Virus record (IMG/VR): IMGVR_UViG_3300042731_006195
Location: 1 to 24,298 of that record
DNA length: 24,298 bases
Reading direction: 5' to 3' (one strand)
From: a virus
A program made the translations under genes and the position numbers. A model generated the notes under the pieces. The model saw only the letters and a program-made list of their open reading frames with translations. It had not been told where the DNA came from and searched no databases. Below, one piece after another: positions 6,076 through 19,380 of this stretch. Positions within the stretch are counted from its first letter, which is position 1. Each line of letters starts with the position of its first letter.

Positions 6076-8200
6076 GATGTCTGGGTTCATGGCTGCGGCC
6101 AAGCGGTTCGTTGAGAACCAGCGGCCGACGCCAGAGATCCCTCCTCGCTCTCCTGTCTCTCCAGAATACCAGAAGAAGCAATCCGAGTTGATGGCCAAAC
6201 TGAAGCGAGGCCGCAAGTCCACCACCCTCGGAGATGCCGAGCTGCGGCGCATCTTGGACCTTCCTCTCATTGCTGGCTTCACTGAAGACAAGCTCGACAG
6301 CATAAACCGGCAGGTGCTTTACGCTGAGTGGTATAACAAAGGCTGGCGCCTTTTCCCAGAACAAGCCAGGGCCTTGTGGGACTATGACCACTATGGAGGC
6401 GGGTTTTTTCCTATCGGGGTAGGAGGCGGGAAGACCCTCATCACGCTCAAGATTGCCCACATTGCCTACGTGAACGGGGCCCGGAAGATCATGCTCATGG
6501 TGCCGCCGGACGTGTTCAGCCAGCTCACCCAGCACGATATCTCCTGGGCCCGTCAGCGAACCTCCCTGGGCGTCCCGTTTCACATCCTTGGAGGTCGGTC
6601 CCTGGCACAAAGAGAAAAGCTGGTGTTGTCTGACAGGCCAGGTTGCTACATTACCCCTTACTCCTTGATGTCCACCCGTGACACCGACCTGATCCTGGAG
6701 GGAGTGGCGCCAGAGTTGTTCATCTGCGATGAGGTTCACTACCTCAAGAACAAGAATGCGGCGCGAACCAGGCGGGTCATGAGCTTCATCGCAAAACACA
6801 ATCCCCAAATGGTGGCCCTGTCCGGGACCATCACCAACAAGTCCATCATGGACTACCATCACCTGATCCGCACCTGCTTGGCCGAGGGGTGTCCCTTACC
6901 TCGTAGTCCGCAAATGGCCGAGGACTGGGGCATGATCATAGATGCGGACGCTGAATACTTGGGCTTTGATGAAACCAAGGCCCTGCACCCGCTTCTCAAT
7001 TGGGCGAAGGATCATTTCCCCAAAGAGAAGTTCCCGATGACTATCTCGGGTTTTCGGAGCGCCTACCGTCACCGATTGAACACTGCCCCAGGAGTAGTGT
7101 CCTCCCCCGACACGGATTTGGGTGTCGGCCTTCTGGTGGAGAACACACCTCCAGCGAATGCAGAGAAGGTCAGTGGTTTCGTCACGCTTCAGGAGTTGAT
7201 GGAGAAGGTTGACAAGGCTTTTCTCACTCCCAACGATGACGAGATTGAACACGCCATGCTCAAGTGGAAGTGGTTGTATGAACTGACAGCAGGCTTCTAC
7301 AACCAGCTTGAGTGGCCGACCGTGGAGAAGTTAGCGAAAGACCGTAAATGGTCTCAAACGGAAGCAGCTCAGGCACTGCTTCGGGCCCAGGAGTATCACA
7401 GGGCGCTTCAAGATTACCGCCGGGAGCTGCGATCTTTTCTCCAGCATTGCCCTCCTCGTGGGATCGATACTCCCATGCTGGTCGGGGCATCAATCTACAG
7501 AGACGGCAGCAAGCGGGTAGGGAAGGTCCTGGCGGCCTTGTGGGACCGCTGCAAGGAGCTGGAATGGGAGCAGATGCCCGAGCGGGAGAAGACGGCCGTG
7601 CGGGTTTGCGACTACAAGATACAAGCCGCTCTGTCGTGGGCCAAGTCTCTCAAGGGCAACACCGGCGGGATCGTGTGGGTTCATCACAAAGAGATGGGTA
7701 AGTGGGCCTACGAATCATTGAAAGAGGCCGGCTTCGACGCAGTGGCCTGCCCTGCGGGTAAGGCTGGAGATGCTCGTATTCGTGACGTGGCCAATGCCAA
7801 CAAAATTTGCGTGGCCTCCATGCCCGGCCACGGCACCGGCAAGAACCTCCAGCATTTCCATGAAGTGCATTTCCTGCAATGGCCCAAACCGGCACATACA
7901 GCAGAGCAGGTCCTGGGGCGTCCGCATCGACCAGGGCAAAAAGCTGATCAAGTTCGAGTAAATTGCTCGCGCATCAATGAGTTTGACCATATACTATTTG
8001 CAGCCACGTTGAATGATGCGGTCTACCGCTCCCAGACAACCGGCAAGCGTGACAAATTACTTTTGGCGAGCTACAGCCCGATGCCGAAGATTTACTCTTC
8101 AGAGTTTCTGCACGAGCAGGGCATGGAGAATAAGCGTCTGGACAAGGCTCAAAGAGAAATGATGCAGGACAGATTTGGAGAGCAAGATGGGCAACAATGA
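6059..8200 (+). CDS. SNF2-like superfamily 2 DNA helicase/translocase (713 aa)
   Basis: This is an ATP-driven DNA translocase with both RecA-like lobes. Lobe 1 has LFPEQARALW (Q102, Q-motif-like), Walker A GVGGGKT at 120-126, MLMVPP (motif Ia), motif II FICDEVHYLKN (DEVH, 224-227) and motif III ALSGT (253-257). Lobe 2 ends in motif VI, QVLGRPHRPGQ, with Q617, R621 and R624, the signature of SNF2-type proteins. The first 90 residues are basic and polar, without a recognised domain. Phage members of this family are proposed to act in replication, recombination or replication-fork handling. ATG 6059 has AGGAG 9 bases upstream; ATG 6077, closer to another AGGAG, is an alternative start. It overlaps both neighbours, in keeping with one operon. 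Confidence 0.9.
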   Translation: MSKRSRMSGFMAAAKRFVENQRPTPEIPPRSPVSPEYQKKQSELMAKLKRGRKSTTLGDAELRRILDLPLIAGFTEDKLDSINRQVLYAEWYNKGWRLFPEQARALWDYDHYGGGFFPIGVGGGKTLITLKIAHIAYVNGARKIMLMVPPDVFSQLTQHDISWARQRTSLGVPFHILGGRSLAQREKLVLSDRPGCYITPYSLMSTRDTDLILEGVAPELFICDEVHYLKNKNAARTRRVMSFIAKHNPQMVALSGTITNKSIMDYHHLIRTCLAEGCPLPRSPQMAEDWGMIIDADAEYLGFDETKALHPLLNWAKDHFPKEKFPMTISGFRSAYRHRLNTAPGVVSSPDTDLGVGLLVENTPPANAEKVSGFVTLQELMEKVDKAFLTPNDDEIEHAMLKWKWLYELTAGFYNQLEWPTVEKLAKDRKWSQTEAAQALLRAQEYHRALQDYRRELRSFLQHCPPRGIDTPMLVGASIYRDGSKRVGKVLAALWDRCKELEWEQMPEREKTAVRVCDYKIQAALSWAKSLKGNTGGIVWVHHKEMGKWAYESLKEAGFDAVACPAGKAGDARIRDVANANKICVASMPGHGTGKNLQHFHEVHFLQWPKPAHTAEQVLGRPHRPGQKADQVRVNCSRINEFDHILFAATLNDAVYRSQTTGKRDKLLLASYSPMPKIYSSEFLHEQGMENKRLDKAQREMMQDRFGEQDGQQ

Positions 8201-8345
8201 CGAGTATTGGAATCGGATCAAAGAGGAGTGCGATGAGTTCGACTCGACCATCGACCGCCCCCACCTGCGCTCCGATTGGGCCAGGCAGGAGGGAGAGGAC
8301 TCCCCTCCTCGAAAAATTTCTCAAAAAGATTTGGACGAGGACTAG
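8187..8345 (+). CDS. Small acidic hypothetical protein (52 aa)
   Basis: ATG 8187 has GGAG 7 bases upstream (TTTGGAGAGCAAGATG) and overlaps the helicase stop by 14 bases; the frame ends at TAG 8343-8345. The product starts MGNNDEYWNRIKEECDEF and is rich in Asp and Glu throughout, with a single Cys and no recognisable motif. It precedes the promoter-like element of the SSB-like gene. Strong acidity in a tiny phage protein can mean DNA mimicry or a host-factor inhibitor, but nothing specific supports that here. The call rests on the ribosome site and the coupling geometry. Confidence 0.55.
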   Translation: MGNNDEYWNRIKEECDEFDSTIDRPHLRSDWARQEGEDSPPRKISQKDLDED

Positions 8346-8361
8346 CCCCCAGCGTATCATA
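8331..8361 (+). promoter_or_regulatory. Candidate sigma70-like promoter for the SSB-like gene
   Basis: TTGGAC (8331-8336) and TATCAT (8355-8360) are separated by 18 bases and resemble -35 and -10 boxes. The -10 region is part of GCGTATCATA (8352-8361), identical to the element at 705-714. It precedes a roughly 60-base A-rich leader and the ribosome site AAGGAG of the gene at 8424. A separate promoter is reasonable for an SSB-like protein, which is needed in large amounts. Confidence 0.5.
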
Positions 8362-8423
8362 CAAAGCGCGTAAGTGAAACGAACTGAAAAAACCAAACGA
8401 AACAAGAAACAAGGAGCGCAATC

Positions 8424-8972
8424 ATGAGTATGTTCAAGGGTGTCGAGAAGGCAAAGGTGTCCCGCTCGGCCAACTATGCCCGCCCTGGTCGTTACATCGC
8501 CTTCGTCCGGAAGGTGGAGACCGGCAAGAACCGCAAGAAGGAAGGTTTCGCCGTCGTCAACCTGGTGTGCCTGATGGACCTGTCCGAGGGCACGGTGGAC
8601 AACCCTCACCGCCCTGGCGAGGAGTTCAGCGACATGATGATGGAGAAGTTCGACAGCTTCCTGGGCAACTTCAAGGGCATGGTCACGGCGCTGACCGGCT
8701 ATCCTGAGGATCAGATCACCCAGGAGGTCTGCGAATACGTCACCAGCGAGGACCAGCCCCTGGCCGGCCTGGTGGTCGAGATGGAGAACATCGAGCGGCA
8801 GACCAAGGAGTCCACGCCCGAGAACCCCCGGTTCTACACGATGAAGAACTACCGCAGGGTCCTCACGATGGACGAGATCGAGAAGACGCTGGACCCCGAA
8901 TCGCTGCCGAGGCTGCTCACTGGGGCCGAGCTGGAGTATCTGGGAGGGAAGGAGCAGGGCTCCGAGTCCTGA
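8424..8972 (+). CDS. SSB-like / OB-fold DNA-binding protein candidate (182 aa)
   Basis: ATG 8424 follows AAGGAG with an 8-base spacer. The protein has a basic N-terminal segment (KGVEKAKVSRSANYARPGRYIAF) leading into alternating hydrophobic strands, with an acidic C-terminal third ending in SES. That layout is common in phage single-stranded-DNA-binding and DUF669-like proteins, which coat ssDNA during replication. There is no enzyme motif. Position supports the call: it sits between the helicase and polymerase genes, has its own candidate promoter and is followed at once by a structured RNA and strong terminator, giving a mono-cistronic transcript as expected for an abundant protein. Sequence similarity to known SSBs is not obvious by eye, so the name stays tentative. 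Confidence 0.5.
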   Translation: MSMFKGVEKAKVSRSANYARPGRYIAFVRKVETGKNRKKEGFAVVNLVCLMDLSEGTVDNPHRPGEEFSDMMMEKFDSFLGNFKGMVTALTGYPEDQITQEVCEYVTSEDQPLAGLVVEMENIERQTKESTPENPRFYTMKNYRRVLTMDEIEKTLDPESLPRLLTGAELEYLGGKEQGSES

Positions 8973-8986
8973 GCCTTCTGGAGCAT

Positions 8987-9046
8987 CGACTAGATCGGTG
9001 TAGCCCGGTAGGCCACCCAAAATAGGCTACCAGCCACCGACAGTCG
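8987..9046 (+). ncRNA. Candidate structured RNA in the 3' region of the SSB-like transcript
   Basis: Nested helices can be drawn by hand: CGACT 8987-8991 with AGTCG 9042-9046; TCGGTG 8995-9000 with CACCGA 9035-9040; TAGCC 9001-9005 with GGCTA 9025-9029; and a small inner GGT/ACC hairpin (9007-9009 with 9015-9017). All listed pairs are Watson-Crick. Asymmetric internal loops lie at 8992-8994/9041 and 9030-9034. It starts 15 bases after the SSB-like stop codon and ends one base before the terminator stem, so the RNA 8987-9085 could exist as a separate small RNA or as a 3' UTR element. It lacks tRNA consensus features. Confidence 0.5.
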
Positions 9047-9047
9047 C

Positions 9048-9085
9048 ACGCCCCTGGGGCCACATTCCCCAGGGGCGTTCTTTTT
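9048..9085 (+). terminator. Strong rho-independent terminator after the SSB-like gene
   Basis: A perfect 12-base inverted repeat, ACGCCCCTGGGG (9048-9059) and CCCCAGGGGCGT (9067-9078), with a 7-base loop, is followed by TCTTTTT. It should end transcription from the 8331-8361 promoter. The zinc-ribbon gene starts 13 bases after the T-run, so downstream expression needs read-through or a promoter not seen here. Confidence 0.93.
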
Positions 9086-9098
9086 ACTGGAGAATACG

Positions 9099-9350
9099 AT
9101 GCCGCTATATGACTACAAGTGCAAGGCGTGCGGAGAGAAGGTGGCCATCGTCCACGGAATGGAGGATGAGCGGGCGAGGAAATGCCCGGCCTGCGGTGAG
9201 GAGGCTCTGGTGCGAATCATCCTGGCTACACCCATCCTCTTCAACGGGAGCTTTCCTGGTAACGACATAAAGCTCCGCAAAGAACATGAGCAGATGCGGA
9301 TCGACGGGGCCAAGCAAAACAAGGACGCAGAGCGTGACCTCAAGAGCTAA
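9099..9350 (+). CDS. FmdB-like zinc-ribbon protein (83 aa)
   Basis: The N-terminus MPLYDYKCKACG with C8/C11 and the later C29-P-A-C32 make a CxxC-x17-CxxC zinc ribbon of the FmdB/CxxC_CxxC_SSSS type, which usually starts with exactly this 'MPxYDYxC..CG' pattern. Members are small nucleic-acid- or protein-binding modules of uncertain function, often annotated as putative regulators. Residues 40-83 form a polar tail without motifs. The ribosome site is CTGGAG 6 bases before ATG 9099. The gene begins right after the strong terminator and ends overlapping the next zinc-ribbon frame by 17 bases. Confidence 0.85.
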   Translation: MPLYDYKCKACGEKVAIVHGMEDERARKCPACGEEALVRIILATPILFNGSFPGNDIKLRKEHEQMRIDGAKQNKDAERDLKS

Positions 9351-9564
9351 ATTCTTTTGTGTGAACGAAACTTGCGGGTATACTACCTATGCTTGCAGCA
9401 GCGTTCGCAGCACCTGCTGCCCCTGGTGTCAGCAATCCCATGCTCTTGTGAGAGAGGATTTGTTAAGCGATGAAGAACGAGGGTTTCTTAAACTGCCCAC
9501 GGCATGCGATTATTGGCAAGACGATAGTGGCGATGGATACGGAGACGCATCTGATATCGGCTGA
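9334..9564 (+). CDS. Second small zinc-ribbon-like protein overlapping the polymerase gene (76 aa)
   Basis: GTG 9334 has AAGGA 8 bases upstream. The frame crosses the 119-base gap between the FmdB-like and polymerase genes and runs on to TGA 9562-9564, overlapping the polymerase start by 95 bases. Cysteines C9-x4-C14-G-Y and C29-P-W-C32 form a rubredoxin/zinc-ribbon-like pair of knuckles, and the C-terminus is strongly acidic (DYWQDDSGDGYGDASDIG). Without this gene the gap would be unusually long for this tightly packed stretch. An alternative start is ATG 9286, inside the FmdB-like gene. The long dual-coding overlap argues for caution: either both are real or the polymerase starts later (for example ATG 9530). 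No specific function can be given. Confidence 0.45.
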   Translation: MTSRAKFFCVNETCGYTTYACSSVRSTCCPWCQQSHALVREDLLSDEERGFLKLPTACDYWQDDSGDGYGDASDIG

Positions 9565-11689
9565 GGCGGTCAGCCCACCGGTCGTGTGTGTCTCCTTGGC
9601 AGTGCGTGAAACGCCTGACCACATCGATGGCATCCTCCTGGCTGCCCACGAGCAGGCCACTGAGGACATGCTCAAGGCACTCCTGACGGATGACGAGGTG
9701 GTCCTGGTGGGTCATCGCATGTCCTACGACCTGGGGGTCATCCACACAACCTGGCCGCAGCTCACTCCCCTGGTGTGGGACAAGCTGGCCAAGGGCCTGG
9801 TCACGGACACGGCCATCCGGGAGAAGCTGCTCAACCTCTCCACCTTGGGGGACGTAGACAATACCCCTACCCCCGGCGGCAAGCCCCAACGAGTTGACTA
9901 TTCCCTGGCGGCCCTGGGCATGAACTACCTCGGGATCGACCGCTCAGACGAGAAGGAGGGTGAGGACATCTGGCGCCTTCGCTACGGTGAGCTGGCCGGC
10001 GTGCCCATCTCCGAGTATCCCCAGGAAGCCTACCAGTATGCGGTGGACGACGCCATCGAAACGCTGATGGTGTGGGAGGCGCAGGAACAGAGGATCGGTA
10101 ACGTCACCGCCGGCCCCGGCAGTTGCAATACTCATGAGTTCCAGACCGCCGTGGACTATGCGCTCAGGCGCATGACCATGAACGGGGTTAGGGTCGATGA
10201 GCAGTATCGGCAGGAACTCATGGACGAGCTGGACGAGGAGATGAGCGAGGAAAACCTCAAGCTCCTGGTCCAGTCTGGCATTATGCGCCCGAGCCAACCC
10301 GCCCGGCCACACGCCAACCAAAAGAAGCGTGTGAGGGAGGTCTTCCCCAACCTGGGCGTGGATTGGAACAGCAAGACTTGGTGGGATCGCCCGTGGGACG
10401 CGGAGGACCTGGAGATCCTGCGGGCCGAGGGCGTGAAGATCACCAAGCCCAAGAAGTCATCCATATGCGAGGAGGTCCTGCACTCCATCATTGAGTCTGT
10501 GTGCGAGGAGAACAACATCGAGGTCAAGAAGACCGAGACCGACCGGACCGCCGCTGACGCGGATTTCCTCAAAGAGATTGCCCACCTGGATCCGATCCTG
10601 GAGCAATACAAACACCGGCAAGAGCTGGCCCGCTTGTGGGGCACCGAGCTGCCGAAGATCGCGGCGCCCAGGATCCACCCCAACTTCGATATACTGAAGG
10701 AAACCGGCCGCACCAGTTCAAAGGGGAATAAAAAAGGCAAGATGATGGAGCCCTACCCTTCGACCAACATCCAGCAGGTCGATCCCCGGGCCCGTAATTG
10801 CTTCATCCCGGATGATGGTTGCGTGTTCACCTCTGTGGATTACTCGGCCCTGGAGCTGGTCAGTGTGGCCCAGCGGACTTACTCCCTCTTCGGTCACTCC
10901 GTCCATCGGGACAAGGTGCTGGCCGGCTACGACCTGCACGCCTTCCTGGGCAGTCAGCTCGCCTTCCACCTGGACGATGAGTTCGCCAACTACTGCGAAG
11001 ACTGCTCCTCCATGGATGAGGTTTACGAACGCTTCATTGAACTGAAGGATGGCCCGGAGGAACAACAGGAGTTCTTTGAGCACTGGCGAAAGTTCGCCAA
11101 GCCTACTGGCCTGGGCTACCCTGGTGGCCTGGGGGCCAAGACCTTCATCACCTATGCCGCCGGCACCTATGGAGTGCATGTGGATGAGGACACGGCCAAG
11201 GACCTGAAGGAGATTTGGCTGAGCGTATATTCCGAGATGGTGGACTTCTTCAAGTGGATCAATACCGAGGCCGTGGACCCAACCGACGACAGTCTCTACT
11301 GCTACGAGACGCCCTTGGGAATGTGGCGGGCCAGGGCCCATTACTGTGCCGCAGCCAACGGCACGGCCATGCAGAGCCCTTCTGCTGAGGGTGCAAAGCT
11401 GGCCGTCTTCAGAGTCATGCGTGCCTGTGACGACCCTCAGGACGCCCTCTACGGCGCCCAGCCGTGGGCCTTCATCCATGATGAGTTGATGGTGCAGATC
11501 CCGGAGGACGAGAACATGGCAGTCCGTGCCGAGCGCGTGGGCCAGCTCATGGTGGAGGCCATGTCCGTGGTTTTCCCGGATGTCCCAATTGAGGCAGAGC
11601 CTGCGTTGATGCGCCGTTGGGACAAGAAAGCCAAAACAGTTCGAGACAGGTCTGGCCGATTAATGGTCTGGACACCAAAGGAGAAATGA
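9470..11689 (+). CDS. Family A DNA polymerase with 3'-5' exonuclease domain (739 aa)
   Basis: This is the replicative polymerase of the phage. The proofreading exonuclease shows Exo I IVAMDTET (D23, E25), Exo II GHRMSYDL (D87) and Exo III YAVDD (Y190, D194). The polymerase domain has motif A DYSALEL (D457, E462), motif B with R540, K544 and L548 in RKFAKPTGLGYPGGLG, and motif C FIHDELM (H670, D671, E672). Motif B departs from E. coli PolI: the 762-equivalent Phe is Leu, and the usual YG is replaced by GG after a GYP insert-like change. There is no 5'-3' exonuclease domain. ATG 9470 is chosen because the first exonuclease strand needs the preceding residues; its ribosome site GAGAGAGGA is 11 bases away. 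The stop overlaps the next gene (TGATG). Confidence 0.94.
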   Translation: MKNEGFLNCPRHAIIGKTIVAMDTETHLISAEAVSPPVVCVSLAVRETPDHIDGILLAAHEQATEDMLKALLTDDEVVLVGHRMSYDLGVIHTTWPQLTPLVWDKLAKGLVTDTAIREKLLNLSTLGDVDNTPTPGGKPQRVDYSLAALGMNYLGIDRSDEKEGEDIWRLRYGELAGVPISEYPQEAYQYAVDDAIETLMVWEAQEQRIGNVTAGPGSCNTHEFQTAVDYALRRMTMNGVRVDEQYRQELMDELDEEMSEENLKLLVQSGIMRPSQPARPHANQKKRVREVFPNLGVDWNSKTWWDRPWDAEDLEILRAEGVKITKPKKSSICEEVLHSIIESVCEENNIEVKKTETDRTAADADFLKEIAHLDPILEQYKHRQELARLWGTELPKIAAPRIHPNFDILKETGRTSSKGNKKGKMMEPYPSTNIQQVDPRARNCFIPDDGCVFTSVDYSALELVSVAQRTYSLFGHSVHRDKVLAGYDLHAFLGSQLAFHLDDEFANYCEDCSSMDEVYERFIELKDGPEEQQEFFEHWRKFAKPTGLGYPGGLGAKTFITYAAGTYGVHVDEDTAKDLKEIWLSVYSEMVDFFKWINTEAVDPTDDSLYCYETPLGMWRARAHYCAAANGTAMQSPSAEGAKLAVFRVMRACDDPQDALYGAQPWAFIHDELMVQIPEDENMAVRAERVGQLMVEAMSVVFPDVPIEAEPALMRRWDKKAKTVRDRSGRLMVWTPKEK

Positions 11690-11964
11690 TGGCAACCTTG
11701 ACAAAACCTGAGTTGGGGGTTACTATTGATTTGACTGGAGTGACGAGATTTCGAGTGGCGATCCCTCGCTACTCCAATCAAGTTCCAGAGGAGGATCAAA
11801 GGTTCTCGGTGGTGGCCGTGTTTTCGTCCCGAGAGGAGACAGTGATGAAGGAGTTCGATTGGGACAGGGCAAACCTGTTCGCTCTCCAGCTCACTCAACA
11901 CATCATCAACGAGGGTGTCGATGTGACCATTCACGAAGACACCGGGAGCATCGTGCCGGCATGA
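11689..11964 (+). CDS. Hypothetical protein (91 aa)
   Basis: ATG 11689 overlaps the polymerase stop (TGATG), with AAAGGAG 5 bases upstream; an adjacent ATG at 11686 is the alternative start. The frame ends in ATGA with the next gene. The product alternates short beta-like hydrophobic segments (VTIDLTGVTRFRVAI, FSVVAVFSS) with a C-terminal helix and an acidic end, and looks like a small alpha/beta domain. There are no Cys, membrane or catalytic motifs, and I do not recognise a family. Tight coupling on both sides places it in the polymerase to DUF5664 unit. Confidence 0.65.
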   Translation: MATLTKPELGVTIDLTGVTRFRVAIPRYSNQVPEEDQRFSVVAVFSSREETVMKEFDWDRANLFALQLTQHIINEGVDVTIHEDTGSIVPA

Positions 11965-12578
11965 GCAAGACACCCAAATACAATTACAACCGTGACGTGA
12001 GCGACCCACGAGAGGCCGCCAGGTTCGACGAGGGCAAGCCTAAGATGGAGCTGGTCCCGTGGACTATCATCAAGGCCCTGGCTTGTGTCTTCGGCTTCGG
12101 GCTGGAGAAATACGGCCCGTGGAATTGGGCCAAAGGCTTCCCTTGGCTTCAGCCATACGCCTCCCTGATGCGCCACCTGGAGCGGTGGCATGAGGGGGAG
12201 GATCTGGATGATGAGTCCGGCCTGCCTCATCTCTACCACGCAGCGGCCAACATCGCCATGCTCATCGAGTTCGCAGAGAAGGGCAAAGGGGTGGACAACC
12301 GCCGGCACGTCATTGAGGCAGAATGGGAGCGCCAGAAGAAAGAACTGGAGGCAAGCCAGAAGGAGCCAGAGCCCAAGGCCGAGGAGAAGCCCAAGGCCGA
12401 GGAGAAGCCCAAGGCCGAGGAGAAGCCCAAGGCCGAGGAGAAGCCCAAGGCCGAGGAGCACCCTGGCTGCAATCATTGCAAGCATTGGTATGGTTTTGCG
12501 GAGGGGGCTTGGTGTGATCTTGGGCACACTCTCGGCATCGGAGACACCTGCAAGGATTTCACAAGGAATCAGCCATGA
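11961..12578 (+). CDS. DUF5664 / dATP-dGTP diphosphohydrolase-like protein with KAEEKP repeat linker and Cys4 tail (205 aa)
   Basis: Residues 15-110 match the phage DUF5664 pattern: ARFDEGKPKMELVPW, GLEKYGPWNWAKG, then RHLERWHEGEDLDDESGLPHLYH with conserved acidic residues and histidines, as in MazG-like all-alpha nucleotide pyrophosphohydrolases. The family is annotated as dATP/dGTP diphosphohydrolase N-terminal, so a role in shaping the purine dNTP pool is plausible but not proven here. A charged helix (112-135) leads into five KAEEKP-type repeats (139-166), then a putative zinc site, C170-x2-C173-x11-C185-x11-C197. The N-terminal domain is the known part; the repeat and Cys4 tail look like an addition. 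ATG 11961 overlaps the previous stop (ATGA), and the stop overlaps the next start likewise. Confidence 0.75.
   Translation: MSKTPKYNYNRDVSDPREAARFDEGKPKMELVPWTIIKALACVFGFGLEKYGPWNWAKGFPWLQPYASLMRHLERWHEGEDLDDESGLPHLYHAAANIAMLIEFAEKGKGVDNRRHVIEAEWERQKKELEASQKEPEPKAEEKPKAEEKPKAEEKPKAEEKPKAEEHPGCNHCKHWYGFAEGAWCDLGHTLGIGDTCKDFTRNQP
12371..12460 (+). repeat. In-frame 18-base tandem repeat, five copies
   Basis: Five consecutive copies of an 18-base unit beginning GCCCAAGGCCGAGGAGAA lie at 12371, 12389, 12407, 12425 and 12443; only the last two bases of the final copy differ (CA instead of AA). They encode a Lys/Ala/Glu/Pro linker inside the DUF5664 gene. Near identity implies recent expansion, and copy number probably varies between related phages by slippage or recombination. 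Confidence 0.97.
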
Positions 12579-13141
12579 AAGCCGTCGTCGTTGGTCTCGG
12601 TCAGTCCGCTCACGATGCCCGCAGGGCCCTGGAGGAGTGCTACACTGTCGGGGTCAATGACGTGGCCAGTTTCCATCAACCGAACGAGTTGTTGATACTG
12701 GACCGGCGCGGGCGGTTCACCGAAAAGAGGCAGGTCCACATCTCCTGCACCCGGGCCGCCAGGCTCTGGTCTCCTTACGAGGAGTGGCAGAAGGTCCTCC
12801 CTGACGTGCCCTTCCGGCAGATCCGCACCCTGAAGTATTCCAAAGTCGATCCCTACCCATGGGGAGACGACGTGGTGGCCACCTTTTTGACCTCCCCAAT
12901 CGCCGGCATAGCCCTGGCCTACAACCTGGGCGCCACGGAGATCGGGGTGATCGGCATGGACCTGCTGCCGGATCACCACATGCACGTAAACGCCGGGCGC
13001 ATCAACCACGTCCTGGGCTGCATTCATGAAGACTTCAGTAAGCGAGGCAGGAAGCTGTTCAATTGCTCGCCCATTGCTCAGATAACATCCCTTCCGTATA
13101 GGGACATCTACGAAATGAGGGAAGATGAAGATTGCATTTAA
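12575..13141 (+). CDS. Rossmann-like MptE/DUF115 or GT42-type protein, putative glycosyltransferase (188 aa)
   Basis: The N-terminus MKAVVVGLGQSAHDA is a nucleotide-binding-like beta strand plus Gly-rich loop. It is followed by CYTVGVNDVASF, ELLILD, then SPIAGIALAYNLGATEIGVIGMDLL. The 'A..LAYNLGATEIGVIGMDL' segment is characteristic of the fold shared by DUF115/MptE-like proteins and GT42 sialyltransferases, where the 'G-x-D' end contributes to the active site. I therefore infer a nucleotide-sugar-dependent transferase or relative; the exact family is uncertain. At 188 residues it is shorter than typical GT42 enzymes. The ribosome site is AAGGA 7 bases before ATG 12575. It opens the glycan cassette and overlaps both neighbours. 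Confidence 0.5.
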   Translation: MKAVVVGLGQSAHDARRALEECYTVGVNDVASFHQPNELLILDRRGRFTEKRQVHISCTRAARLWSPYEEWQKVLPDVPFRQIRTLKYSKVDPYPWGDDVVATFLTSPIAGIALAYNLGATEIGVIGMDLLPDHHMHVNAGRINHVLGCIHEDFSKRGRKLFNCSPIAQITSLPYRDIYEMREDEDCI

Positions 13142-13700
13142 AAAGACGGCGGAAAATCACTTGAAGCGGTGCAAGGAGGCCCGTGTAGCTACCGGCCTGC
13201 ATCTGGACTACCTCCGCGAGCTGGCTGGTTCTGTGATGAATGTGGTGGAGCTGGGCGTGAATCGTGGTGCCTCCACTGTAGCCCTGGCTTTGGGCTGCCA
13301 GGGCGGCCTCACCAGCTACGAATACAACCCCACCAAATACACCCGCAAACTCAAAAGGATGCTGGGTCCTGAGTGGAAGTTGCGGATCAAGGACACCCGC
13401 ACCGTGCAGCCGGATGAGGCGCCGGAGTGTTGCCTGCTGTTCGTGGACTCTCTCCATACCCACGATCAGGTAGCCAAGGAGTTGGCAATCTTTGCCCCCA
13501 AGACCAGGCGCTATATTGTTTTTCACGATACTGTAACCTTCGGGCAGTATGGGGCTGACGGGGAAACCGGCAAGGTAGACCAATCCGTTAAAGGGATTAT
13601 GTCTGCCATCATGGAGTTTGTGCAGGTCAATCCTGAGTGGCAGCTCGTTCGCCACGTCCTCTACGGCCACGGCCTTCTGACTCTGGAGAAGCTCGGATGA
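13125..13700 (+). CDS. Class I SAM-dependent methyltransferase (Methyltransf_24-like), 191 aa
   Basis: Motif I is VVELGVNRGAST (40-51), with E42 and G48 forming the SAM-binding loop. SYEYNP (64-69) supplies the acidic residue at the end of strand 2 (E66), LLFVDSLHTHDQVAKEL (104-120) is the post-II region with D108 and H111, and YIVFHDT (130-136) ends strand 5. The DxxH and HD pattern is typical of Methyltransf_24-type enzymes that are often found in polysaccharide or antibiotic clusters and methylate small molecules or sugars. DNA methyltransferase motifs (DPPY, NPPY, PC) are absent. ATG 13125 lies in the end of the previous gene with GAGGGAAG just upstream. Given its neighbours it probably modifies a sugar or the acceptor glycan (inference). 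Confidence 0.75.
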   Translation: MKIAFKKTAENHLKRCKEARVATGLHLDYLRELAGSVMNVVELGVNRGASTVALALGCQGGLTSYEYNPTKYTRKLKRMLGPEWKLRIKDTRTVQPDEAPECCLLFVDSLHTHDQVAKELAIFAPKTRRYIVFHDTVTFGQYGADGETGKVDQSVKGIMSAIMEFVQVNPEWQLVRHVLYGHGLLTLEKLG

Positions 13701-14407
13701 AAATCTACAACCAAACCAATGTGCATTTAATCACCGCCTTGATGGGGGACTGCAAGGACCCGCTCCGGGCCCTCCCTCAAGGTGAGGGAGATGAGGACAT
13801 CCTCACCGGCACGGCCTTTGTGGACGACCAGCGTAAGGATCTGAAGGTGCCGGGCTGGAACGTGCGCACCGTGCCGTGGGGCGGCCACCCGGCGAATGTG
13901 GTGCGTCGGGTGAAGCTCGACCCGTTCAACTGCATGGAAGGAATCTACGACGGTGATGTGGTGATCTGGGCCGATGCCTCGTTCGAGATCAGCAGCATCA
14001 AGTCGTTCATGCACTGGATTCAGGATTGTGATCTGGTGGTCCTGGAGCATCCTTTCCACAAGGATTTGGTGCAGGAAGCGGTTGCCTTGTATCGTGCCAA
14101 CGACCCACAAGCTCTGCATTGGAATATGGCCCTCCGTAGCGCGGTAAAAGAGCACTACCGAGCCGGTCTCCCGGACGACATTCCCCACACTATCGGTGGG
14201 CTGTATGCTGCCCGGGTCAACGCCTACACGCGGTATTTCTTTCAGCAGTGGCAGGGGTGGTATCGTCGCTACGAGGATGATTGCCAGAGGGACCAGATCC
14301 ACATGGGCCGTGCTCTTTTCGAGTCCTGTAATAGCGTTCGCATTGAATACATACCCTGTGATTACTCCAAGGACACGAAATTCGGATTCCGTTTTCACAA
14401 GGCATAG
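13697..14407 (+). CDS. DUF616/TOD1-like glycosyltransferase candidate (236 aa)
   Basis: ATG 13697 overlaps the methyltransferase stop (ATGA), with GGAG 8 bases upstream; the frame stays open further upstream but that lies inside the methyltransferase gene. The core is YDGDVVIWADASFEISS (84-100), a strand ending in an acidic A-D-A-S, as in GT-A-like DUF616 (TOD1/MUCI70 hexosyltransferase-like) proteins, in the form 'viWxDaxxxi'. LVVLEHPFHKD, a helical region and an IHMGRALFES segment follow in the expected order. It shares this layout with the next gene, so the two may be diverged paralogues. Family assignment is by motif and order only; substrate and acceptor are unknown. Confidence 0.55.
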   Translation: MKIYNQTNVHLITALMGDCKDPLRALPQGEGDEDILTGTAFVDDQRKDLKVPGWNVRTVPWGGHPANVVRRVKLDPFNCMEGIYDGDVVIWADASFEISSIKSFMHWIQDCDLVVLEHPFHKDLVQEAVALYRANDPQALHWNMALRSAVKEHYRAGLPDDIPHTIGGLYAARVNAYTRYFFQQWQGWYRRYEDDCQRDQIHMGRALFESCNSVRIEYIPCDYSKDTKFGFRFHKA

Positions 14408-14409
14408 AC

Positions 14410-15117
14410 ATGAGAGTAGTAACAGCCCACTTCGGAGACACCGATCCCCTCTTGCAGCCCCTGGTCGTGCAGCCTGGTGTAGACTACATCTGCTTCACGG
14501 ACCGGGAGGACCTGGGTGATGGAGGGGCATGGACCTTGAAGCGCCTGGACGCCCTGGTAGACCGGCCTCCTCGTCTGCGAGCCCGCTACGTCAAGACCTG
14601 CGTCATGGGAGGGGTCTCCACGGTTTGGGTGGACGGCACCTATCAATTGAAACGAGCGCCCAAGGTCCTGTTCAATCTCCTGGGAGATCGCCAGCTCCTG
14701 GCCCTGGCTCATCCCCACCGTAACGACATCATCGAAGAGGGAGAGGCGGTGGTGTCCGGGCATGGGGTCTCCAAGGGCTGGATAGGTCGGCAGATCGATC
14801 AATACCGGACCGAAAGCTTCCCGGTTGAGGGGCCCCTCAACGGCCTCACCACGACGGGCCTGCTGGTGAGTGCCGGCGGGTGGGAGATGGCTCGCTTCGG
14901 CATGGAGTGGTTCAAGGAGATCAGGAAGTGGCAGCATCAGCGGGATCAGATGTCCGTTGACTACATGATCTGGAAGCTGGGCATCAGGGCCGGTTACCTG
15001 TTCGGTCACTATCGCAACAATCCCTATGCTCGTTACTATCGCCATGGAGGGTCCTTGGCGCCCCTACAAAACATCAATCAGTGCCGGAGGCCAGGAAGGC
15101 GGTTCGTAAATGCGTGA
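14410..15117 (+). CDS. DUF616/TOD1-like glycosyltransferase (235 aa)
   Basis: This fits the DUF616 family better than the upstream neighbour: VVTAHFGDTDPL at the N-terminus, DYICFTDRE, RLRARYVKTC (55-64, Arg-rich donor-site-like helix), STVWVDGTYQL with D75, LALAHPHRNDIIEE (97-110) and QMSVDYMIWKLG near the C-terminus. In this family the 'W-x-D' acid is the counterpart of the GT-A DxD motif, and 'aHP.R....E' is a further conserved block. The predicted activity is hexose transfer from a nucleotide sugar. The ribosome site is AAGG 7 bases before ATG 14410. The stop overlaps the next start by 8 bases. Confidence 0.7.
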   Translation: MRVVTAHFGDTDPLLQPLVVQPGVDYICFTDREDLGDGGAWTLKRLDALVDRPPRLRARYVKTCVMGGVSTVWVDGTYQLKRAPKVLFNLLGDRQLLALAHPHRNDIIEEGEAVVSGHGVSKGWIGRQIDQYRTESFPVEGPLNGLTTTGLLVSAGGWEMARFGMEWFKEIRKWQHQRDQMSVDYMIWKLGIRAGYLFGHYRNNPYARYYRHGGSLAPLQNINQCRRPGRRFVNA

Positions 15118-15835
15118 ATTGAATATGGATTATTGCATCCAGTGGTGGCAGGAACAGTTCAGCCTCCAGGACGGGCCGCGCTACAGCTTCTCCAGATTTG
15201 GAGATGGGGAGATCGCCTGCATGCTGGGCTCGGGCCCGTCCAACTGCGACAAACACCCCTACACCAAGGAGCTGGCAGAGGATCTGATCCGGGCGTTCAC
15301 TCAGCCGCACCTGCATAAGGTTGTCTATGGCATCCAGCGCATGGTGATGGAGAAAAGGGCTGCTGAGATAGCCGGACTCTTCTCCATGATCGGGGATGTG
15401 TCTATGCCGGGCATGACCGCCGGGGACGTATTCCATCACATGAGCATGCGTGGGCAGCTCAGGCCAGTCATGGACTTCATGAGCCGGAAGCCCTGGCAGG
15501 TCTGTCTTGTTGGGCCTGACCACATCCAGGCCCTTCCTTGGGTTCGTCAACACCACTACCTAAGCGCGTATGTGCATGTGCCCAAGAGAAACTGCTACTC
15601 AGAAATGGACAGGGTGCTGGAGGAGATCGAGGAAGCATACCTTCAGGGCTGCAAGTTCTTCTCCCTCTCCTGCTCTATGATGGCCGAGGTGATCATCCAT
15701 AAGGTAACCCCGGTTCTTCCGATGGCTACATTCATTGACTTCGGTTCCATGTGGGATCCCTACTGCGGGGTCCAGAGCCGCACCTACCACAAGCGCCACA
15801 CCACCGAGGAGTGGCTGGAGATGTTGAACTCATGA
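15110..15835 (+). CDS. GT-D fold (DUF1792-like) glycosyltransferase (241 aa)
   Basis: The hallmark is SFSRFGDGEIACM at 26-38, with R29, D32 and E34. 'RfGDGE' is the conserved nucleotide-sugar and metal-binding motif of the GT-D family first defined from DUF1792 proteins of bacterial glycoprotein glycan pathways. VCLVGPDHIQALPW (161-174) and FFSLSCSMMAEVIIH are further alpha/beta core elements, and FIDFGSMWDPY fits the family's C-terminal block. The likely reaction is sugar addition to a growing glycan. ATG 15110 overlaps the previous stop; ATG 15125 is an alternative. The end forms ATGA with the next gene. Confidence 0.72.
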   Translation: MRELNMDYCIQWWQEQFSLQDGPRYSFSRFGDGEIACMLGSGPSNCDKHPYTKELAEDLIRAFTQPHLHKVVYGIQRMVMEKRAAEIAGLFSMIGDVSMPGMTAGDVFHHMSMRGQLRPVMDFMSRKPWQVCLVGPDHIQALPWVRQHHYLSAYVHVPKRNCYSEMDRVLEEIEEAYLQGCKFFSLSCSMMAEVIIHKVTPVLPMATFIDFGSMWDPYCGVQSRTYHKRHTTEEWLEMLNS

Positions 15836-16602
15836 TTGCCATGGACCTCATTACCCCCACTGGGGACCGTCACGAATCCCTGTCGCTGACCTACAAATAC
15901 ATGATGGCGCAAACCCTCCTGCACAAAGGTGCCAACATCAACTGGTTCATCGTGGACGATGGCCAGACCGATGCTTGCTCTCGTGTGGTGGCCAAGCACC
16001 CGCTGGTGATGGACATCGGCAAGGGAAGACTCCAGGTGTATCATGTCAGACTGATCCACAGCCCCGCCACTGTGGGCCCGCGCAGCCTGGCCCATAATGT
16101 GATGGCGGTGATCGGACACGTCACCGCCGGCAAGATAGCCATTATCGAGGACGATGACTGCTACCCAACCACCTACCTGGAAGAACAGTGGGTGCGGCTG
16201 GAGGATGCCGATATGTCGGGAACGATCTTCCAGCGCTACTACCACCTGCCGTCCAGGAGCTATCGGATCTTCCGCAACCGTGGGTCAGCCTTCTGCTCGA
16301 CCGCCTTCACTCGCAACATGATTCCCCTGCTCCAGCAGGTCCTCCTGGACTGCTTCAACCGGAACTCCAAGGGCATCGATGCCAAGTTCTGGGAGGAGGG
16401 CAAGAAGGCCGGGGCCGTGCAGGACATCTACGAGCCGGAGCCGCACGAGCTTCAGGTGATCGGCATGAAGGGCCTCCCGGGCCGGGCCGGCATCGGTGTA
16501 GGTCACCGTCCCAAGAAGTTCCAGGCCGACCAGCAGATGCTGGTCCTCAGGGGTTGGGTTGGGGAGGACTACTTCCCGGCCTACCGGGACATGCTGGTAT
16601 GA
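15832..16602 (+). CDS. GT-A (GT2-like) glycosyltransferase (256 aa)
   Basis: The N-terminal part has the GT-A layout: DLITPTGDRHESL, INWFIVDDGQTDAC with the donor-binding V-D-D-G (41-44), and AIIEDDDCYPTTYLEE with the metal-binding acidic cluster E106-D109. A helical C-terminal half follows with two HxxK/GxGH-like stretches. GT2-type enzymes transfer a sugar from a nucleotide donor to glycan, lipid, protein or, in some phages, modified DNA bases. There is no transmembrane segment, so it is predicted to be cytosolic. ATG 15832 overlaps the GT-D stop (ATGA); the longer upstream open frame lies within the GT-D gene. The ribosome site is weak, so coupling probably drives translation. Confidence 0.8.
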   Translation: MIAMDLITPTGDRHESLSLTYKYMMAQTLLHKGANINWFIVDDGQTDACSRVVAKHPLVMDIGKGRLQVYHVRLIHSPATVGPRSLAHNVMAVIGHVTAGKIAIIEDDDCYPTTYLEEQWVRLEDADMSGTIFQRYYHLPSRSYRIFRNRGSAFCSTAFTRNMIPLLQQVLLDCFNRNSKGIDAKFWEEGKKAGAVQDIYEPEPHELQVIGMKGLPGRAGIGVGHRPKKFQADQQMLVLRGWVGEDYFPAYRDMLV

Positions 16603-17159
16603 ACATCATCGGGATAGACCCTGACTTACACCATACAGGACTGGCTCTCCTGGTGGACGGGGCCCCGGCGGCCCTCCGAATCTGCCGCGTGGAGCCCAAA
16701 TACAAGGGCCCTGACGCCGTGATTGAGATGGCGGCCCGTCTGCCCGAGGAGATCCAGCGGCTCTGTGAGGGGGCTGGAAAGGCGCCACAGGACCTGCACC
16801 GGGCGATCATCGAGGGGCAGAAAATCTACGCCGGCATCAAGCAGCATGCCCGCCCGAGCGATATCCTGATGCTCGCCCATGTAGCAGGGGCGGCCCTGGG
16901 CCTATTGAAACTCTTTACCGAGCAGGTCCTCCTACCGGAGCCCGGTCGTTGGAAGGGCACGGTCCCGAAGAAGGTTCACCAGCGTCGGCTGATCATCAAA
17001 GAGAGGTGGACGCCCAGGGAGACCAAGACTGCGGTCTATCCGGATGGACAGCCTCTGGGCCTGAAACTGGCCGCTACCCAGTGGTCCCATGTCCTGGACG
17101 CCCTGGGGCTGGCCAGATGGGGAGAGCAGCGGCATTGGATCGAGGGGAAGGTGATCTAG
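16599..17159 (+). CDS. RuvC-like Holliday junction resolvase (186 aa)
   Basis: This is an RNase H-fold nuclease of the RuvC type. It has IIGIDPDLHHTGLAL with D7 at the end of strand 1, AIIEGQ with E72, and SHVLDALGLA with H164 and D167 giving the last acid of the active site. The acid spacing and 186-residue length agree with RuvC-like phage resolvases, which cleave branched DNA formed in replication, recombination or before packaging. It is the last plus-strand gene of the left block and starts by an ATGA overlap with the glycosyltransferase, though its role links to the replication module. Its stop codon shares CTAG with the stop of the convergent minus-strand gene. Confidence 0.82.
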   Translation: MNIIGIDPDLHHTGLALLVDGAPAALRICRVEPKYKGPDAVIEMAARLPEEIQRLCEGAGKAPQDLHRAIIEGQKIYAGIKQHARPSDILMLAHVAGAALGLLKLFTEQVLLPEPGRWKGTVPKKVHQRRLIIKERWTPRETKTAVYPDGQPLGLKLAATQWSHVLDALGLARWGEQRHWIEGKVI

Positions 17160-17911
17160 GTCAGCCGCCGGGCCTTGCTGATTCCGTCCTGCGGGAAAGA
17201 GATCATGTCCACCCTGAACAGGCCCTCCAGGCCCCTCAATGATCCAATCGATCCACCAGGGCCGCTGGCCTTAACCGTCAGGCCGAAGCCACGGTAGAAT
17301 GCCTGCTCGAACTTACTGATCTCCAGCTCAAAGATTTTACCGATCAATGGTCTGAGATCGTGCTCTGCCATCTTGTAGAACAGGCGCACGCCTTTGGTGA
17401 AGAACGGATCTCCTCTCCAGGCCCGGCGTTTCTTGGTGAAGATGGCGCCGGCCTCTTTGGCCTTCTTGGCAAAGGTTTTTTTCTGCGAGGCAGAGAGGAT
17501 CCTATTAAAGCTCTTTACCTGGCTTCGTCTCTTCTCCAGCGCCGCGTCTGCCGGACGCCTCGGGTCGTTCGTGATACCTCCCTTGCGTGGGAAGAAGATG
17601 TAGATTCCATGGCGTTTACGGGTGGCCCGGTAACCATCGTGGTAGGCTTTTATCCAGTAGTGAGGCAGGGCCAGGTTGACTGAAGTGGCCCTCCGGTTGA
17701 GCCGGGTATTGGCCAGGATGGTCTTGATGGTGGATGAGGTCGTTGAATAGGAGGCGTAAAAGCGCAGCGCCCGAGCAACCAGGTAGGCGGTGGAGGCACT
17801 CATGTCCCGCTTGCTCAGGCGCCGCTTTTTCGTTTGGGTGGCGAGCAGGCGCTGGACCTCTTTACTGAGGTCGCGCCTCATCTCCCCACGGCTGTCTCCG
17901 GCGCGTGCCAC
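17156..17911 (-). CDS. Basic hypothetical protein downstream of portal, putative minor head protein (251 aa)
   Basis: Read on the minus strand, it begins with GTG at 17911 overlapping the portal stop (TAGTG). ATG at 17881 (MRRDL...), close after GGGGAG, is a good alternative that removes 10 residues. The protein is rich in Lys and Arg, especially in the first 50 residues and around 100-175, with aromatic-rich patches such as HGIYIFFPRKGG and ALPHYWIKAYHDGY. A mostly helical end is followed by a short Gly/Ser-rich stretch. No catalytic motif is recognised. Following the portal gene in the same transcript suggests a head morphogenesis or portal-associated protein (inference from position only). 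Confidence 0.55.
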   Translation of the reverse strand: MARAGDSRGEMRRDLSKEVQRLLATQTKKRRLSKRDMSASTAYLVARALRFYASYSTTSSTIKTILANTRLNRRATSVNLALPHYWIKAYHDGYRATRKRHGIYIFFPRKGGITNDPRRPADAALEKRRSQVKSFNRILSASQKKTFAKKAKEAGAIFTKKRRAWRGDPFFTKGVRLFYKMAEHDLRPLIGKIFELEISKFEQAFYRGFGLTVKASGPGGSIGSLRGLEGLFRVDMISFPQDGISKARRLT

Positions 17912-19380
17912 TAGTCTTTCAGCCCCTTCTTGGGATCGCGCTCTTTGTTCTGGGGAGCGTTCACGTCCTGGCGCATCCTGGAGACTGTATCGAGGCTCTC
18001 GACCTCCATCTCCGTGGTGATCTTCCGCAGCTCGAAGTCGCCCCGGCCCAGCTTGAGCCCGCCGTTCTTGGCGGCATTGCCCAGCGTGTTGGTGAGGGTA
18101 GTCTCAAAGATGGTCTGCTGCGGTCCGATCACCAGGGCCTGGAACGCCTTCATGGCGCTGACGATCTCGTTGGCGGCCCCGAGCTTGCCAGGGATCTGAA
18201 TGCCGGCGAGGAGCGGCGGGACGCGGTGGGCGGTCACTATCTCCAGGGCCATGGTGTCTACCTTCTGGCTGAACCCGTCATCTCCCTTGGTGTCCATGGC
18301 GAGCTTCTCAAGCTGCACCACCATGTTCTTGTCCGACAGGTTGAGGACGATGCTCTTGTGAGAGTTGCCCATGCCGACTCCGGCCTCTACCGATTCTTGG
18401 AGCTTGTTCCAGTCATCCTGGTTCAGTTTCTGACCGAGCAGGAACAACATGAACTCCGGCACGCCCCGGTTCAGGAAGAAGTCGTAGGTATGCTGATGCA
18501 GAGCCTGGAACAGCTCGATGCCGGCCACGGCTGCCAACCACTTCGGCATTCCATACCAGCGACTCTGAGCGGTGGCCTCACGGAAATGGATGACCTCTGA
18601 CACGTCATCCTTGTCCAGGTCCGGGAAGCGTTTCAGCAACTCGTCCCGGTCACCGAAGCGAGCGAAGTGTAGCTCCTGCCCGTCGCTTCCGTTGCCAGAT
18701 ATCTGGTAATGCCCCTGGTAGTTGCTCTCGATGACCGGGCGCACGTCTTTGGCTGGCAGGAAATGAAGACCGGTGATCTCGGCATTGTCTCCTCGCACCA
18801 CCTCGATGTAGCCATTTCCGGTCTGCTGATAATCCTCAGACACCTGGTTCAAGACCTGCTGGAAACTCACCTCGCACAACACATCCAGCTCCGTGGCCAC
18901 CTTGGAGTTGCGGTCCTCCTCGCGCCCGTCATCAGCCTTGTTGATGCCTTTGGCTTTCTGCGGCTCCTGGATCCCCATCTGACCAGGCTGGGCAGGGCCG
19001 GCCTGCTGCATCTCCTTCTTGGCCTTCTCGGCCTCGGCTCGATCTTTCTTCTCCTTCTCAGTGACAAACCCAAGCCCGACCAGGGCAGTGGCCTTCACGT
19101 CAATGCAGGCAGAGTGGTAGGGGTTGGCAGCCTTGAACTCCACCACCGAATCTAAGTTGAAGGGGTGGTCTTTGGTGCCCGTGTTGGGGTCCTGCTTCGA
19201 GCCGCCTTTCTTCTCTGCGGCTGGGTTCGGCATGGCCTTCATCAGGAAGTCCAGGAGAGACTCTCCTTCAGCCCTGCGATCCTCTTTGTAGAGGGGGACA
19301 TGCCGGCGGCTGATGGTCAGTTTGGTTACCGCTGCTTCCGGGCTTTCGCCACGGGGTTTTCGCTGCTTTTTCGCTGTCAT
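17911..19380 (-). CDS. Phage portal protein, HK97/PBSX XkdE-like (489 aa)
   Basis: The portal is the dodecameric ring at the capsid vertex through which DNA enters and leaves. Visible signatures are ANPYHSACIDVKATALVG near the N-terminus, DYQQTGNGYIEVVRG followed by a 'lhflPAKDVRPV' wing-type segment, VIHFREATAQSRWYGMPKW, and the C-terminal NEIVSAMKAFQALVIGPQQ block. This order is typical of PBSX/XkdE-type portals. A charged low-complexity insertion (KEKKDRAEAEKAKKEM and onward) sits in the N-terminal third. ATG at 19380 is chosen because GGAGG lies 6 bases upstream on the minus strand; the open frame extends further upstream without a ribosome site. It is unusual that portal and protease/capsid genes are on opposite strands. 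Confidence 0.85.
   Translation of the reverse strand: MTAKKQRKPRGESPEAAVTKLTISRRHVPLYKEDRRAEGESLLDFLMKAMPNPAAEKKGGSKQDPNTGTKDHPFNLDSVVEFKAANPYHSACIDVKATALVGLGFVTEKEKKDRAEAEKAKKEMQQAGPAQPGQMGIQEPQKAKGINKADDGREEDRNSKVATELDVLCEVSFQQVLNQVSEDYQQTGNGYIEVVRGDNAEITGLHFLPAKDVRPVIESNYQGHYQISGNGSDGQELHFARFGDRDELLKRFPDLDKDDVSEVIHFREATAQSRWYGMPKWLAAVAGIELFQALHQHTYDFFLNRGVPEFMLFLLGQKLNQDDWNKLQESVEAGVGMGNSHKSIVLNLSDKNMVVQLEKLAMDTKGDDGFSQKVDTMALEIVTAHRVPPLLAGIQIPGKLGAANEIVSAMKAFQALVIGPQQTIFETTLTNTLGNAAKNGGLKLGRGDFELRKITTEMEVESLDTVSRMRQDVNAPQNKERDPKKGLKD

Follow-up and report, generated by a model that had tools for sequence, protein, structure and literature searches.

What is a run of six sugar-active genes doing in the middle of a phage genome? 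The question is raised by the IMG/VR virus record IMGVR_UViG_3300042731_006195, a stretch of 24,298 bp, read as a single strand from 5' to 3', which we call the window; it is probably a fragment, with genes beyond its ends unseen. Between positions 12575 and 16602 it carries a cassette of six open reading frames (ORFs) on the same strand, P1 to P6, each of which begins with ATG (Table 1). An earlier note, made from the sequence alone, took them for five transferase-like genes and a methyltransferase that together assemble a multi-step glycan in the cytosol, and this is still the best reading. We tentatively favour the view that the cassette is a soluble cytosolic pathway building a short O-methylated oligosaccharide, most probably on serine or threonine residues of virion proteins.

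The identity of each protein was assigned from sequence searches, profiles and, for P1 and P5, AlphaFold models that were compared by Foldseek and by VIA Z scores. P2, P4 and P6 lie above the curated Pfam cut-offs; P1, P3 and P5 lie below them or have no hit. P2 scores 32.5 bits against Methyltransf_24 (cut-off 26.3) and falls slightly under the cut-off of CmcI, and its family profile matches solved O-methyltransferase structures. P6 reaches 28.5 bits against Glycos_transf_2 (cut-off 23.3), and its IIEDDD motif is invariant in 7 sequences; the family profile finds heparosan synthase B (2e-4) and the C-terminal domain of the streptococcal enzyme dGT1 (5hea, 0.005). P4 reaches 27.5 bits against TOD1_MUCI70 (cut-off 21.4), and K, D and DQ columns are invariant among its relatives. 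While P4 thus passes the cut-off for the TOD1/MUCI70 family, the proteins from phages, at about 235 residues, are shorter and cover only part of the 314-position profile; a comparison of the TOD1 profile with the PDB gave nothing. P3 had no PF04765 hit and matched no curated family above its cut-off. It resembles P4 in one pairwise BLASTP comparison and a TOD1-like gene of another locus, L088 (phmmer 1.5e-6). Since only the paralogy with P4 supports the name, we call P3 TOD1-like and not a member of the family.

For P1 and P5 the predicted folds are the more informative. P1 had no Pfam match of use, and its profile found nothing significant among the PDB sequences, including no GT42 or Maf match. 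The AlphaFold model of P1, made from a 15-sequence alignment (predicted local distance difference test, pLDDT, 79), was matched in VIA to the Maf flagellin glycosyltransferase 5mu5 (Z 12.9), to MptE 8sd5 (Z 11.1) and to the GT42 enzyme CstII (about Z 9.9); CstII is also its best Foldseek match (E 1e-5). Invariant columns in the 15 relatives are G.G, GVND and SP...EI...G.D, with an H near the G.D. On its modelled fold, P1 belongs to the Maf/GT42/MptE superfamily, although it has 188 residues and Maf has 632. As a single sequence, P5 stays under the cut-off of the Pfam GT-D-like family (0.018), but a profile of 8 relatives matches the sequence of 4pfx, a DUF1792 protein, with E 9.4e-6, aligning RYGDGE to RFGDGE. 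The AlphaFold model of P5, from an eight-sequence alignment (pLDDT 82), is similar to 4pfx with a VIA Z of 17.5 (root-mean-square deviation 2.9 over 203 residues; Foldseek E 3e-8), so that P5 is predicted to have the GT-D fold. BFVD, too, has GT-D matches inside longer Homavirus proteins that are named glycosyltransferase 2-like and methyltransferase domain-containing. All six calls of the earlier note therefore stand, that of P3 on paralogy and that of P1 on fold; MptE/GT42-like was right for P1, with Maf as another structure close to it.

Where do relatives of these genes occur? A nucleotide search of annotated phages gave no match for the cassette DNA, and tblastn of P1, P3, P5 and P6 against 50,697 phage records gave no relatives; with P4, one unannotated gut contig was found. 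IMG/VR, on the other hand, holds relatives of the cassette. For the profile relatives, the best 80 of 182 confirmed stretches were used for P6 and the best 80 of 207 stretches for P2. The P5 profile retrieved six loci, one of which was also found by an earlier single-sequence scan. We were not able to find a relative of the P5 alignment in genome contigs, a search made with one degenerate pattern only, which does not imply that P5 is restricted to viruses. When used as queries in the scan for relatives, the DNA polymerase of the window found none and the capsid found one distant locus.

The clearest sign that these genes belong together comes from one of the relatives, a contig of 46,379 bases (L008). 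It carries P1-P2-P4-P5-X-P6 in the order of the cassette; P3 is absent, and an extra, unassigned gene, X (8355-8996), stands between P5 and P6. We compared 28 window proteins with all ORFs of this contig. Convincing matches were obtained for P2 (7e-41, 41% identity), P4 (3e-18), P5 (5e-23) and P6 (3e-38), whereas the 22 non-cassette proteins gave no confident match to the contig, the best being 0.007. L008:5812-6462, the gene ahead of P2, was aligned to the P1 profile by hhalign with a probability of 95 and E 3e-8, and it shows a weak similarity to the MptE-like family PF01973 (0.0016, under the cut-off); the P4 counterpart matches PF04765 with 4.6e-16. Judged by their sequences, the two phages are otherwise unrelated, with no other detectable kinship. 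Seven loci were retrieved with P5 as the only query; in five of them P4 immediately precedes P5, and in five a P2-family gene is near or fused. Furthermore, single ORFs join P4 to P6 (L010, L012), P2 to P5 (L091) and P2 to P6 (L042, L046-L049), three kinds of fusion which, at the sequence level, tie four families together.

The next question is what the relatives have as neighbours. A head hallmark (terminase, portal, capsid or protease, recognised by profiles whose seeds were partly taken from the same loci) was found in 37 of the 52 non-redundant loci, on the same strand in 36 of these 37; it lies within 5 kb in 35 loci and within 2 kb in 28. The remaining loci are fragments or lack a hallmark recognisable with these seeds. 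Of the large genes lying within 8 kb on the same strand in the non-redundant loci, 100 were picked by hand from a longer list; among these, Pfam matched 11 Phage_capsid, 12 portal, 15 protease, 8 terminase and 3 Mu_F proteins, and only 1 DNA_pol_A and 1 PD-(D/E)XK nuclease (PDDEXK). In L008 itself, the block is flanked by a portal gene on one side and a Mu-F-like head gene on the other. We regard this linkage as a strong tendency and not as a tested enrichment, because the counts have no matched set of randomly chosen phage genes as a control. Since the relatives lie among head genes, and the L008 block between portal and Mu-F-like gene, the weight moves to a virion protein as the acceptor; of the candidates in the earlier note, this one has gained, and phage DNA, which had been kept for its placement among replication genes, has lost ground.

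How could such a pathway work? The chain would grow by single sugars taken from host nucleotide sugars. The glycosylation of flagellin suggests the Maf-like P1 as a candidate for the starter that places the first sugar, which P3 and P4 (TOD1-like), P5 (GT-D) and P6 (GT2) would then extend, while P2 would methylate a sugar hydroxyl. P5 may act before P6, as suggested by the two-domain order of dGT1. In Streptococcus parasanguinis, dGT1 glycosylates the protein Fap1 with its GT-D domain and then with its GT-A domain, each adding a sugar in turn (PMC5063993). The dGT1 of streptococcal Fap1/serine-rich repeat protein (SRRP) systems combines DUF1792 with GT-A (4pfx, 5hea), and the order P5-P6 is that of its domains; in the window, by contrast, P5 and P6 are separate genes, and the likeness of P6 to 5hea is weak. 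Scans with Pfam and PHROGs, which covered part of the genes of this fragmentary record, gave no Gtf1/Gtf2 starter, no acceptor of the SRRP type and no accessory Sec gene among the window proteins. The resemblance to the SRRP system would thus be one of the way of working only. No nonulosonate genes were recognised in the window either. The closest solved folds, Maf and DUF1792, belong to protein-glycosylation enzymes. Subunits of the capsid and of the tail tube are reported to carry glycans in mycobacteriophages (Freeman et al. 2023, described in PMC12619734 and PMC10955285), and in these accounts, too, the glycosyltransferases are encoded by the phage. The set described here differs from what they describe in having five transferase-like proteins of four families and a methyltransferase.

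Several points weigh against virion proteins as the target of a joint pathway. The acceptor and the sugars are ones that we infer, and so are the enzymatic activity, the joint action on one glycan and the order of the steps. Head genes are in any case plentiful in phage genomes, which bears on counts that have partly home-grown seeds and no control set. In the window, the cassette sits between a nucleotide-pool gene and a RuvC gene and not amid head genes, and the portal gene is 1.3 kb off on the opposite strand; because of this position, the head linkage of the cassette rests on its relatives. The fold of P5 is also similar to that of TagA/TarA (Z 12.4), enzymes with lipid-linked sugars as substrates, and that of P1 also matches MptE, a kinase. 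Finally, in 25 of the 52 non-redundant loci, P6 has no member of the other families as a neighbour up to 6 kb away, and 79 P2-family loci have no P1, P4, P5 or P6 nearby. From these sequences, P1 to P6 are not an obligate set. The proposed check for co-conservation of the six genes has therefore given a divided answer: the ordered five genes of L008, the fusions and the P4-P5 adjacency speak for it, and the idea of an obligate set does not hold. The cassette is modular, and its members also occur apart.

Potentially, the target could be the surface of the host, with a lipid-linked or cell-wall glycan being altered, for example to exclude other phages. The match of P5 to the teichoic-acid transferases TagA/TarA and the resemblance of P6 to polysaccharide-type GT2 enzymes would fit, and serotype-changing phage glycosyltransferases are known (PMC12619734). 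We nevertheless consider remodelling of the host unlikely: the cassette has no membrane protein, flippase or lipid-carrier enzyme, and the linkage of the relatives to head genes is not expected for seroconversion genes. Such genes are usually found near integration modules. The statement that the six proteins lack transmembrane helices was borne out, as no convincing membrane segment was found in P1-P6 by Kyte-Doolittle analysis (the highest 19-residue mean, 1.57, is in P1).

It is quite unlikely, in our view, that the glycan is built on a modified base of the phage DNA. Such hypermodification, known of phage glycosyltransferase sets that act on 5-hydroxymethylcytosine, would agree with the 4-base overlaps of the cassette and with its position, in the window, beside genes of the nucleotide pool and of replication. 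The glycosylation of DNA with diverse glycans by virus glycosyltransferases has been published (Pyle et al. 2024, as cited in PMC12619734), and the sets as reported there share with the cassette several virus glycosyltransferases in series; unlike them, the window shows no member of a base hydroxymethylase family. The earlier note had seen no base hydroxymethylase in the window, and a targeted search likewise found there no member of the thymidylate synthase family, which includes the pyrimidine hydroxymethylases. In the related contigs, which are possibly incomplete, the family is present in only 2 of 20, and it is not in that of L008; no PurZ-type gene was found in the window. The probability of DNA as the acceptor is lowered by the absence of the thymidylate synthase family from the window and from 18 of the 20 contigs and by that of PurZ from the window; the position of the relatives among head genes argues in the same direction.

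Even less likely is the case that there is no joint pathway, and that independent sugar-active genes drift through a permissive site, each working with host enzymes on a different target. The strongly varying composition of the loci, with P6 and P2 relatives so often found apart from the other families, fits such a drift. Against it stand the five genes kept in order by two phages that are otherwise unrelated, the adjacency of P4 and P5 and the three kinds of fusion. Glycosylation and methylation of a small molecule instead of a macromolecule is highly improbable: antibiotics or their sugars are the substrates of several enzymes in the Methyltransf_24/CmcI/TylF group, to which P2 belongs, but the cassette has no scaffold-building enzyme, and five transferases exceed a typical tailoring set.

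Table 1. Genes of the cassette and neighbouring genes in the window
Gene	Assignment	Length (aa)	Position	Strand	Basis
P1	Maf/MptE/GT42-superfamily transferase-like	188	12575..13141	+	AlphaFold fold; no Pfam match
P2	S-adenosylmethionine (SAM)-dependent O-methyltransferase, Methyltransf_24/CmcI-TylF-like	191	13125..13700	+	Pfam 1.7e-7
P3	Divergent TOD1/MUCI70-like transferase, P4 paralogue	236	13697..14407	+	Pairwise BLASTP 8e-6
P4	TOD1/MUCI70-like glycosyltransferase	235	14410..15117	+	Pfam PF04765 2.5e-6
P5	GT-D (DUF1792-fold) glycosyltransferase, motif RFGDGE	241	15110..15835	+	AlphaFold fold, profile to 4pfx
P6	GT-A/GT2 glycosyltransferase, motif IIEDDD	256	15832..16602	+	Pfam PF00535 1.8e-6
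Upstream neighbour	dATP/dGTP diphosphohydrolase-like, outside the pathway		11961..12578	+	PF18909 2.8e-30, phrog_801 7e-40
Downstream neighbour	RuvC-like Holliday junction resolvase		16599..17159	+	phrog_1770 6e-7
Portal	Portal protein, nearest recognised head gene		17911..19380	-	PF04860 5e-22

As for the layout of the cassette, the boundaries, overlaps and 2-base gap in the earlier note are exact: the junctions from P1 to P6 are, in order, -17, -4, +2, -8 and -4 bases. Its placement between a nucleotide-pool gene and a RuvC resolvase also held, with an overlap of 4 bases between the diphosphohydrolase gene and P1 and another between P6 and the RuvC gene. The description as translationally chained is correct with regard to the overlaps, but they are nothing special: overlapping or near-abutting genes are common across the window, and tight packing is the general style of this phage. 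Because much of the window is equally packed, the chaining taken by itself is no evidence of a joint pathway. The cassette does not show the unusual composition that would point to a recent arrival: its GC content and its GC content at third codon positions match the rest of the window. Promoters and terminators were found at chance level only, and no tRNA or Rfam RNA was found.

Some observations concern the neighbouring genes. The diphosphohydrolase-like gene contains a perfect 18-base tandem repeat (12370-12458, 4.9 copies, KPKAEE), and its product has a tail with cysteine. This gene adjoins a PolA-type polymerase with weak DpoZ similarity, a neighbourhood which raised the idea of a Z-genome (2-aminoadenine); we rejected it for want of the PurZ family in the window. 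At 17156-19380, the portal gene and the gene following it are on the minus strand, with protease, capsid and connector-like genes on the plus strand. This is either an unusual arrangement of the head module or an assembly join; around the minus-strand portal we found no long inverted repeats, only short imperfect pairs.

Other sugar genes were noticed at the loci of the relatives. In L087, where the cassette proper lies between terminase and portal, a further glycosyltransferase-like gene (11056-11730, by eye) stands amid head-tail connector-like genes. L004 has, right after the terminase, a lengthy series of small genes resembling transferases and methyltransferases (7016-16847), with adjacent P1-like and P6-like genes. 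L010 (8801-18609) and L012 carry a sugar cassette of about 10 kb after tail-like genes, with a CTP_transf_3 gene (CMP-Kdo/NeuAc synthetase type), two P2-type methyltransferases, the P6+P4 fusion and a sulfotransferase-like gene (by eye). In larger phages (L099, L101, L138, L144), P2 relatives recur in a cluster with NAD-epimerase-like and transferase-like genes (by eye), apparently a separate glycan pathway. ORFs with the look of GIY-YIG or HNH homing endonucleases (by eye) occur in or near sugar cassettes (L019 9447-10001, L029 11397-11852, L087 328-606), and they might drive the shuffling of sugar modules.

What would virion glycosylation by this cassette mean? Taken to its full extent, the idea would be a self-contained protein O-glycosylation of head proteins, with a Maf-like starter, TOD1-like, GT-D and GT2 extenders and an O-methyl cap, which is shuffled as a module among unrelated environmental phages and forms a large and so far overlooked source of methylated glycans on virions; in this breadth the idea is possible but rather doubtful. 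So far, few phages have been shown to have glycosylated virions. Should modules of soluble transferases be common in the head operons of environmental phages, capsids may be widely sugar-coated, with consequences for host recognition, stability, immune recognition and the blind spots of phage proteomics. The set is also a source of small soluble GT-D, Maf-like and TOD1-like enzymes for the study of these little-characterised families.

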